From a virus: DNA of 25,037 nucleotides. How positions within the stretch are numbered: position 1 is the first letter of the stretch; each line of letters starts with the position of its first letter. Location of the stretch: IMG/VR virus record IMGVR_UViG_3300047356_000517, positions 1 to 25,037 of that record. The stretch is one strand, 5' to 3'. The notes under the pieces were generated by a model. That model saw only the letters and a program-made list of their open reading frames with translations. It did no database searches and was not told the DNA's origin. Positions 10,354 to 12,222 of this stretch are shown here, in pieces. A program made the position numbers and the translations under genes.

Positions 10354-12096
10354 ATGAAAAATAAAATAATAAAAACCCTAGCGGCCGTGTTCATCACGGC
10401 TTTTTTTACGACTACCGCATACTCTGAGCCTTTAGAGGTTTGGATATATGCAGAACGCACACCATCATACATATCATCGGTTACATATTCGCAAGACATT
10501 GTAACACCCGAAGATATTAATGATGTTGCTGCCTTAGATATTCTAACAAGCGGTCCAAAAGGACAAGTTAGTTCGTTGTTTATCAGAGGAGCAGATAGTG
10601 ATCAAAACTTGATAGCATTAAATGGCATTCCCATTAAAGACCATTCAAGTCCAACTGGAACAGATGATATTGGCCAACATAGTTTTACTGGTATACAACA
10701 GATAGAAATTATTAAAGGTCCGATGAGCAGTTTGTATGGAGCAAACGCTGCCGGAGGCGTTATTAACTTAGTTTCAGATATATCACATCAATCATATATT
10801 AAAGCAGATGTTGGATCTAATAATGCAATTACAAAGGAGGTACAAATATCAAATACAATTGATAGACTTGCATATACTTTTAATTTAGATCAAGAAAACA
10901 CTGACGGAATAAGTGTATATCCAGATGGTGACGAAACTGACCCTTATGACAGTACTAATATGAATTTTAATGTTTTATATTACGGCGATAATATAAATTA
11001 TAGATTAAACTACATAGACGAATTAAACAATTCTAACCTTGACGGTATGGGCGATACTAAAGACTACACAGGAAAATGGCATTGGACTAATACACAGTTT
11101 GATGTAAACACCAACAATACTAGATTTGTTCTTAATAATTCAAAACATAAAAGAACATATACTAAAGACGGATTACTTGAAGGAAACTACGATAGTAATA
11201 CTAATACTATACATCTTTCACATCTGTTGCAATTTAATCAAACTGATGTTACTCTTGGAACAGAACACGAAAAAGTTGATGCTAAATTTTTAACAAATAT
11301 TAGAGGTCCTTGGCCTTATACAAGTAATGTTAATAAAAGTAGATCGACACACGGTATTTTTGTAAACACTAGTATTGAAACCGATAATAATGCTGTAATA
11401 TCATCTGGTATAAGATATGATGATATTGAAGGCTTTGGCGACAAGCTAACAGGCAGATACGGATTATTTAAAAATGGTTACAGAGGAAGTGTATCATTAG
11501 GTTATCGTGTGCCAACACTATATGAAATGTATGGCGAAGACAATTATGGATTTACAGGTAATCCAGACTTAAAAGAAGAAGACACTGTAAGTTTAGAAAT
11601 TGGTTATGCTAATGCATTTTTTGATACAGCAGTATTTGTAACACAAGAAAACAATGCAATTATTTACAACGGAACATATGTAAATGATTCAGATAACTCT
11701 TATACTAAGGGTGTAGAAACAAAATTTACATACGATATTAATGATTATTTCATTACAGCTAACACAGCTATTATCGATGCTAAAACGTCTGAAGGCAAGC
11801 AAAAGCTAAGACGTCCAAAATACACTAGTAACGTAGAGATAAGTAAACTTGTAAACAATGTATTGTATAGCACTAAAGCAAACTACTATGGCAAGCACAA
11901 AGACATAGATAGTAAAACATTCCAAACTGTTGACAAAGGATCAACAATTTTGTATGATGCTGAATTAAAGTATTTAAAAGACAACATTGAAATATTTACA
12001 GGGCTATATAATATTAGTGATACAAAATATGAAAGACCCGACGGTTATAGTCAATTAGGACGAAACTGGAAAGCAGGGTTTAAGGTATACTTTTAA
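10354..12096 (+). CDS. TonB-dependent outer-membrane receptor, BtuB-like
   Basis: The 580-aa protein starts with a signal peptide (about residues 1-24: MKNKIIK, then a hydrophobic stretch ending AYS). A TonB-box-like LEVWIYAER follows, then a plug domain with SSLFIRGADSDQNLIALNG, IQQIEIIKGPMSSLYGANAAGGVINL, and a long series of amphipathic beta strands ending in the aromatic residue (KVYF) used by the BAM machinery. Length is close to BtuB (about 614 aa), which imports vitamin B12; the family also takes up iron chelates and sugars. Such a receptor in a phage is very unusual: it could feed the infected cell or mask or replace a phage receptor. Its codon use is AT-rich like its neighbours. A terminator hairpin lies in its signal-peptide codons. 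The ligand is unknown. Confidence 0.88.
   Translation: MKNKIIKTLAAVFITAFFTTTAYSEPLEVWIYAERTPSYISSVTYSQDIVTPEDINDVAALDILTSGPKGQVSSLFIRGADSDQNLIALNGIPIKDHSSPTGTDDIGQHSFTGIQQIEIIKGPMSSLYGANAAGGVINLVSDISHQSYIKADVGSNNAITKEVQISNTIDRLAYTFNLDQENTDGISVYPDGDETDPYDSTNMNFNVLYYGDNINYRLNYIDELNNSNLDGMGDTKDYTGKWHWTNTQFDVNTNNTRFVLNNSKHKRTYTKDGLLEGNYDSNTNTIHLSHLLQFNQTDVTLGTEHEKVDAKFLTNIRGPWPYTSNVNKSRSTHGIFVNTSIETDNNAVISSGIRYDDIEGFGDKLTGRYGLFKNGYRGSVSLGYRVPTLYEMYGEDNYGFTGNPDLKEEDTVSLEIGYANAFFDTAVFVTQENNAIIYNGTYVNDSDNSYTKGVETKFTYDINDYFITANTAIIDAKTSEGKQKLRRPKYTSNVEISKLVNNVLYSTKANYYGKHKDIDSKTFQTVDKGSTILYDAELKYLKDNIEIFTGLYNISDTKYERPDGYSQLGRNWKAGFKVYF
10384..10407 (+). terminator. Intrinsic terminator inside the receptor's signal-peptide codons
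   Basis: GCCGTG (10384-10389), loop TTCAT, CACGGC (10395-10400) and seven T residues (10401-10407) form a textbook Rho-independent terminator. It spans codons 11-18 of the receptor gene and lies at about +31 to +54 of the leaderless transcript. It also lies 66 nt past the stop of the upstream virion gene, so it may end that transcript as well. Confidence 0.75.
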
Positions 12097-12222
12097 ATGA
12101 AAAAAATATTAAACAATCCTTGGATGCTACCTTGGATAGGAATGATTTCACCTCTTGTTCTGTTCTTACTTTATAAAGTAGGGCTAGAGCTTTGGTGTAT
12201 AGCATACGGCATCTTTTATTAA
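12097..12222 (+). CDS. 41-aa single-pass membrane protein following the TonB receptor
   Basis: The ATG follows directly on the receptor stop codon (no bases between). The product has a basic start (MKKILNNPW) and a hydrophobic core (WIGMISPLVLFLLYKVGL, then ELWCIAYGIFY) long enough for one membrane helix plus an amphipathic end, with no basic residue after Lys27. It is too short to show family features. Its immediate linkage suggests co-expression with the receptor, perhaps as an accessory inner-membrane peptide, although a holin-like or exclusion role is equally possible. No separate ribosome binding site is seen, so translational coupling is likely. Confidence 0.6.
   Translation: MKKILNNPWMLPWIGMISPLVLFLLYKVGLELWCIAYGIFY

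Follow-up and report, generated by a model that had tools for sequence, protein, structure and literature searches.

A BtuB-like TonB-dependent receptor encoded by a phage, and the two small membrane proteins that alternate beside it

Introduction

Vitamin B12 is scarce in the sea. As set out in the accessible part of one study, many bacteria cannot make this vitamin, and the solitary S-component BtuM is a B12 transporter that is paired with the receptor BtuB (PMC6072759). Genes for TonB-dependent receptors (TBDRs) as such are already known from phages, the available portions of two reports describing a SusC-like TBDR gene in the megaphage Mar_Mega_1 (PMC9723777) and a TBDR gene in the pelagiphage Polarivirus skadi (PMC10504331). 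Here we describe a BtuB-like TBDR encoded in the IMG/VR virus record IMGVR_UViG_3300047356_000517, together with S41, a hydrophobic protein of 41 residues whose gene follows that of the receptor; the whole stretch of DNA analysed, a virus record of 25,037 bases, is referred to as the window.

It appears probable that this protein is a phage-borne uptake receptor of the BtuB kind for corrinoids (vitamin B12-type compounds) and part of an import module, which on the best reading has two interchangeable partners, either S41 or a membrane protein of the family DUF6580. A phage-encoded B12 receptor module was not found in the literature searched, some of it accessible only in part, which does not prove its absence in print; relative to that literature, the novelty lies in the module and in what looks like a swap between an S-component-like protein and a microprotein.

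Results

Likeness of the receptor to BtuB

The original prediction, made from the window alone, was of a complete, BtuB-like outer-membrane receptor with a signal peptide, a TonB-box-like segment, plug and barrel domains and a C-terminal Phe, and this description holds. The Plug and TonB-type barrel domains both score over the Pfam cut-offs, which places the protein in the TonB-dependent receptor superfamily, and a signal peptide is discernible by eye (Table 1). Among NCBIfam models, the best match is to TonB-B12 (1.1e-43), followed by BtuB PRK10641 (2.7e-33) and then by haem receptor models (6.5e-21); the B12 receptor model is matched by 26 of 26 representative phage receptors and the haem model by 21. 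An AlphaFold model based on an alignment of 26 phage receptors (pLDDT 79.9, pTM 0.82) matches solved TBDR structures, and in a Foldseek comparison with the PDB ranks 1-12 are all E. coli BtuB entries.

The likeness extends to individual positions. In the column of BtuB D195, Asp is present in 26/26 phage receptors, in 11/11 flavobacterial B12-type receptors (10 of them riboswitch-linked and one DUF6580-linked) and in 1/10 other flavobacterial receptors, the corresponding counts for D230 being 26/26, 11/11 and 0/10, while the D193 column holds E or D in the phage receptors. We take these acidic columns (D195, D230 and their like) to be calcium/cobalamin loop residues of BtuB; a literature search for such a role returned nothing.

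The genomic setting of the closest cellular relatives was also compared. When the phage-receptor profile and the cobalamin riboswitch model were both run on the same 60 Flavobacteriaceae genomes, 50 of which contain the riboswitch, a cobalamin riboswitch was located within 2.5 kb of the best-matching cellular TBDR in 33 of 48 genomes, compared with roughly 7.3 expected by random choice among the matches (a rough figure, as some genes appear as two matches). The best TBDR match was not listed for two of the 50 genomes, hence the 48 counted, and that of G009 was taken after omission of its phage-like contig C54.

Phylogenetic analysis of 53 receptors put the 26 from phages on one side of a branch with support of 97/95 and grouped the flavobacterial B12-type receptors together (100/100). 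With its midpoint root only, its long branches and E. coli BtuB as a long, unresolved branch, this tree neither shows nor rules out descent of the phage clade from B12 receptors. A search of 50,697 phage records gave receptor matches in six, all of less than 60% identity, two of which (H3 and H4) are annotated btuB; the same collection gave no match to DUF6580 (L013 query) or to S41 (L002 query). In two others of the six records, H1 and H2, the B12 receptor match overlaps 16S rRNA, and these look like pieces of bacterial chromosome.

DUF6580, an S-component-like partner

DUF6580 adjoins the receptor in 49 of the 82 receptor loci compared here. In one arrangement (L010-L013, L030-L035, L048), the receptor stop codon overlaps the start of a membrane protein of 158-160 residues, of which the L013 copy matches Pfam DUF6580 at 9.2e-38; in another (L020, L042-L047, L050, L053, L055), the DUF6580 gene precedes and overlaps that of the receptor; in L052 DUF6580 is again upstream, at a distance of 117 nt. 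In the VIA comparison of the DUF6580 model, ranks 1-17 are all S-components of energy-coupling factor (ECF) transporters or CbiM-type components (Z 10.5-13.4, where helical models can reach about 13 by chance, without kinship), after which the score drops and other folds follow at Z ≤8.0. BtuM with hydroxocobalamin is among these matches (Z 13.3, root-mean-square deviation 2.7 Å, 149 residues aligned). The prediction thus points to a six-helix, ECF S-component-like fold as the likely one for DUF6580, subject to the quality of the model considered below.

The name DUF6580 was not found in the literature searched. The family occurs in 7 of the 60 Flavobacteriaceae genomes. Four of these seven loci adjoin a TBDR, three of them with a cobalamin riboswitch between the two genes; in one of the four (L078), DUF6580 is cut by the contig end, and the same metagenome-assembled genome (MAG) holds the phage-like contig L020. 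Two of the seven lie upstream of metH-like genes (named by eye), one directly and one with an intervening gene, and both have a SAM-II riboswitch upstream.

Exchange of partners

The remaining receptor loci comprise 28 with S41 and five with neither partner; no locus has both. A first set of 46 loci contained 22 with S41 only, 22 with DUF6580 only, none with both and two with neither (both cut), and was obtained from 47 loci by adding L020 and the window and dropping L001 (identical to the window), L009 and L049 (the last two lacking a complete open reading frame). The second set, found with other search patterns, consisted of the 36 loci left from 80 once 44 that were at least 97% identical to earlier ones had been removed, with S41 in 6, DUF6580 in 27, both in none and neither in 3. 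In L054, L056 and L367, three of the five loci lacking both partners, the sequence starts only within the receptor or at its beginning; this does not apply to L399 and L400.

Because the 82 loci still include near-copies, a dereplicated tree of 51 receptors (19 with S41, 31 with DUF6580 and one with none) is the fairer measure. On this tree four changes of the S41 label are needed, each imposed by starred branches. Since one of them depends on L398, a long branch that meets the long branch L340, a count of three is safer; without L398, three S41 groups remain. The slot itself is kept across these changes: it is downstream of the receptor in the window clade (S41) and its sister clade (DUF6580), and upstream in the L336-L357 and L036 groups (S41) and in their neighbours (DUF6580). 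The pattern is that of one partner replacing another in place, which says nothing on whether S41 does the same job as DUF6580.

S41 and a wider microprotein family

The S41 reading frame begins right after the receptor stop codon, as had been predicted. Its length is exactly 41 residues in 15/15 window-clade loci with a complete receptor, and across 10 window-clade loci synonymous change exceeds nonsynonymous change (mean pN / mean pS = 0.335). The family shares a YKxxLELWCxxYG-like motif, and a scan with the S41 alignment confirmed 81 loci, of which 80 were kept. For 60 of these 80, flanks of up to 4 kb revealed no receptor. The earlier suggestion that the 41-residue protein is an accessory of the receptor stands in so far as S41 holds the DUF6580 slot beside these receptors; a role as dedicated receptor accessory is rejected on the 60 loci with no receptor detected in flanks of up to 4 kb, and S41 belongs to a wider microprotein family. 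The loci without a detected receptor (within L086-L165, e.g. L097, L121 and L140) are often near small exported proteins or IscU-like genes, as judged by eye.

A second, shorter TBDR family (about 460-540 residues) was found in 45 viral loci (L312 weakly), 11 of which carry S41 and none DUF6580, so that S41 does not accompany every phage TBDR. The two shorter receptors that were tested gave a Plug match and no barrel match. In L157, the shorter TBDR stands exactly where the window receptor does, between a virion-type gene and a primase, and in the 15 loci viewed the neighbours of this family include exported small proteins and Fe-S genes. These shorter receptors may serve another ligand. A gene for an A-type Fe-S carrier (PF01521) is found near an L036-clade receptor (L036 8111-8449).

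Conservation, expression and surroundings of the locus

Scans of IMG/VR for relatives of the receptor gave 13 loci and then 47 viral contigs, with identities of 30-100%. The original prediction had placed the receptor between virion and replication genes. This arrangement is kept in the 15 window-clade loci with a complete receptor, with a virion-type gene upstream in 15/15 and a primase downstream in 13/15, the other two contigs ending before the primase position. An assembly chimera, which had been named as a finding that would overturn the prediction, and host contamination are both ruled out, since separate contigs repeat this order of genes. The receptor is under purifying selection, with dN/dS (Nei-Gojobori) of 0.11-0.24 for the nine printed pairs where it was computable; two window pairs were saturated at synonymous sites. 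In bacterial genome contigs the only strong receptor match was L020, on an 8.5-kb contig of a Flavobacteriaceae MAG, which reads as a phage fragment given the genes it has in common with L042-group viral contigs; L021 and L022 are weak cellular matches and were omitted from the phage counts.

Nor has the gene been lost in all close relatives, as had also been considered. Among the best 80 of 535 primase loci, receptor and S41 are both present in 10 (including L166, identical to the window) and both absent from 66, each of these with more than 2.5 kb of upstream sequence, while four are too short to judge, giving 76 evaluable loci. The receptor and S41 insert is thus optional in the primase relatives, and the position of the receptor locus differs between clades.

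A consensus promoter before the receptor was likewise part of the original prediction. Its layout (TTGACA-17-TATAAT, with TATACT in the window), ending 6 nt before the ATG, is present in 10/10 window-clade loci examined (of 15), and an 11-of-12 match ending 5 nt before the receptor ATG is found in L010, L012, L030 and L034; the layout was not found before the receptor in L036, L042, L050 and L052. With the usual sigma70 start-site spacing, transcription would begin at or near the ATG, and the receptor transcript is probably leaderless. The primase transcript, given the same promoter layout (Table 1), would likewise begin at the ATG.

The gene upstream of the receptor matches a virion-structure PHROG (7.6e-9) and the gene downstream a phage primase (5.8e-41), with DnaB- and UvsW-type genes further out. 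The window's DnaB-like protein shows 51.5% identity to its counterparts in Pseudomonas phages of 287 kb, PA5oct among them, and for the relative L048 the nearest capsid proteins come from phages of 349-469 kb, from which we infer that the source phages are jumbo phages of the T4 type. Their habitat is probably marine, judging from the relatives and from published accounts. Elsewhere the window encodes a queuosine-precursor transporter-like protein (4883-5491; TIGR00697 and Vut_1, both over cut-off), two lipopolysaccharide-sugar enzymes (6064-7495), namely a KDO-8-phosphate synthase (over cut-off) and, after it, an overlapping CMP-KDO synthetase-like protein (below NCBIfam cut-offs), a carbamoyltransferase with a Nol-like PHROG match (13579-15033) and a subtilase-family protease (20763-22382).

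Table 1. Features of the receptor locus in the window, with examples of the shorter TBDR family from other loci.
Feature	Position	Strand	Basis or remark
Virion structural protein-like, upstream flank	9551..10318	+	PHROG match; BppU_N match below cut-off
Sigma70-type promoter, TTGACA-17-TATACT	10319..10347	+	TTGACA 10319-10324, 17 nt, TATACT 10342-10347; -10 ends 6 nt before receptor ATG
BtuB-like TBDR, 580 residues, C-terminal Phe	10354..12096	+	Domain, profile and structure matches
Putative Sec signal peptide, about residues 1-24	10354..10425	+	Judged by eye; segment common to homologues
TonB-box-like segment, about residues 26-36	10429..10461	+	Aligned with E. coli BtuB TonB-box region
Plug domain, residues 58-136	10525..10761	+	Pfam PF07715, E 1.7e-14, over cut-off
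Acidic loop, residues 184-197	10903..10944	+	Aligned with BtuB D193/D195; D196 invariant
Beta-barrel domain match, residues 189-554	10918..12015	+	Pfam PF00593, E 2.8e-18, over cut-off
Asp230	11041..11043	+	Aligned with BtuB Asp230
S41, 41-residue hydrophobic microprotein, C-terminal motif LELWCxxYG	12097..12222	+	Starts directly after receptor stop codon
Second promoter, TTGACA-17-TATAAT	12231..12259	+	By eye; 6 nt before primase ATG 12266
DNA primase, downstream flank	12266..13249	+	Start in open reading frame list TTG 12248; ATG common to homologues 12266
Shorter TBDR examples	L157 2590-3993; L113 4093-5598; L268-L312		

B12-binding genes in the phages

Radical S-adenosylmethionine (SAM) genes converge on the receptor in seven loci (L020, L042-L047) and are near it in L050 and L052. 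In the four tested (L020, L042, L050, L052), their products gave a B12-binding match below the curated cut-off. Radical SAM genes with such sub-threshold matches beside phage TBDRs were observed at L020 4278-5498, L042 9686-10972, L139 2968-4560 and L278 4536-5999. A contig-wide search gave a B12-binding match in 8 of 27 records, in five of them over the cut-off. A B12-dependent ribonucleotide reductase was considered as a reason for carrying the receptor and rejected: in six records the sole NrdJ-model match, in L013, is below cut-off and adjoins an NrdB-like gene, and is read as a class Ia NrdA.

Discussion

Evidence for and against a corrinoid ligand

Nutrient uptake was among the roles first proposed for this receptor, with B12, iron and haem as candidates. 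Within that proposal, a ligand of the B12 type is favoured by the DUF6580 partner, by the riboswitch-linked cellular kin and by the conserved loop columns, and the receptor would probably act in corrinoid import.

Several observations weigh against this reading. The window receptor scores far below the BtuB equivalog cut-offs (149.7 versus 599.7 bits for TIGR01779 and 115.4 versus 836 bits for NF007926) and is only about 20-25% identical to BtuB; because of these scores it is not classed as a BtuB equivalog, although it resembles BtuB. In all 26 phage receptors BtuB D179 is replaced by Ser, as it is in 11/11 flavobacterial B12-type receptors, and the D241 column is a gap. The receptor tree does not set the phage clade among B12 receptors: it is separate from E. 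coli BtuB, and the flavobacterial B12-type receptors join other flavobacterial receptors (90/95) rather than the phage clade. The closest TBDR is not riboswitch-linked in 15 of the 48 genomes. In addition to the chance level of the VIA scores noted above, the DUF6580 model is modest (pLDDT 70.1), and Foldseek alone gave it no E value below 0.1 (best 0.13). One of the seven cellular DUF6580 loci (L082) has no visible B12 link, and DUF6580 was not found in the window clade, either in the contigs searched or in 15/15 loci. No cobalamin riboswitch over the gathering score was found in the seven phage sources scanned. Beside the receptors, no B12-binding match reaches the curated cut-off; no such domain match was obtained in seven window-clade records searched (up to 115 kb), nor in the contig-wide search for L042, L043, L044, L046 and L050, and the B12-binding matches, counted in phages with receptors, are a hint only. 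Finally, the reductase genes of L013, a relative of 204 kb, appear to encode class Ia NrdA/NrdB rather than a B12-dependent enzyme.

Alternative roles

Import of another scarce nutrient (a ferric siderophore, haem or another metal complex) for the iron needs of phage or host is a role that we regard as unlikely. Fe-S assembly genes (PF01521) occur in the vicinity of receptors of the L036 clade and next to the short TBDR in L287, several phages in which no receptor was detected have S41 alongside genes judged by eye to be IscU-like, and in NCBIfam the B12 models are followed next by those for haem receptors. However, for the window receptor the B12 model is favoured over the haem model by more than 20 orders of magnitude in E-value, the closest solved structures are those of BtuB, the D195 and D230 columns are conserved, and the pairing with DUF6580 and the cellular B12 context of that family also weigh against this role.

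BtuB-type proteins are receptors for phages and colicins, and genes for superinfection exclusion are often optional inserts. A role in exclusion or surface remodelling, in which the receptor would displace or mimic a host receptor used by rival phages or colicins, accords with this background, with the insert being present in only 10 of the 76 evaluable primase relatives (from the best 80 of 535) and with the occurrence of a BtuB-colicin E3 complex among the PDB matches. Exclusion needs no S-component-like partner, yet such a partner is present in 49 of the 82 loci and S41 takes its position in 28; the Plug domain, the TonB-box region and the ligand-loop columns are also conserved, and this role appears more doubtful still than metal uptake. 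That the receptor is a virion or adsorption protein is highly improbable: it adjoins structural genes in the window and in the L013 type, and the TBDR gene of Polarivirus skadi is tied to adsorption in the accessible part of its authors' report (PMC10504331), but its signal-peptide-like N-terminus and outer-membrane barrel architecture, the membrane-protein nature of its partners and the variation of locus position between clades all argue otherwise.

A possible mechanism

If the protein is indeed a corrinoid receptor, its expression would be driven by a strong sigma70 promoter of its own, probably with a leaderless transcript. Host machinery would export it and insert it in the outer membrane, the host TonB-ExbBD system would energise it, and more B12, or a related cobamide, would enter the infected cell; viruses would thus raise cofactor import in the cells that they infect. 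Phages with DUF6580 would also supply the likely inner-membrane step, much as bacteria pair BtuB with BtuM, and the function suggested for this uncharacterised family is accordingly that of a B12 transporter. In the window clade and in two or three other lineages, S41 takes the DUF6580 position; it would probably act in the inner membrane, its target being either a host transporter or the TonB complex.

For the uncharacterised S41 family, the corresponding functional hypothesis is that a single helix with a conserved Cys in the LELWC motif stands in for a six-helix S-component in a phage-spread corrinoid-import module, a proposal that we consider tentative and rather doubtful. If true, S41 would be a minimal inner-membrane partner, moving the cofactor as an oligomer or capturing a host transporter; it would rank among the smallest known transport partners and give phages a means of controlling B12 in marine waters.

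Comparison with known systems

The TBDR genes of Mar_Mega_1 and Polarivirus skadi, like the present one, are receptor genes in marine phage genomes. In the portions of those accounts that were accessible, no BtuB-type receptor, S-component partner or S41 is described. Compared with E. coli BtuB, which is its best structural match, the phage receptor has the same plug and barrel, a TonB-box region and the D195 and D230 columns; it differs in its low identity (about 20-25%) and sub-cut-off equivalog score, in a shorter N-terminus of the plug, in being phage-encoded and in that no riboswitch was found with it. The BtuB and BtuM pair, as far as the accessible part of its description goes, differs from the phage module in that DUF6580 is a separate Pfam family with a predicted transport role and in that the window clade carries S41 instead. 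What the two have in common is the arrangement itself: in 49 of the 82 phage loci, next to the receptor gene lies one for a small membrane protein whose predicted fold resembles that of an S-component.

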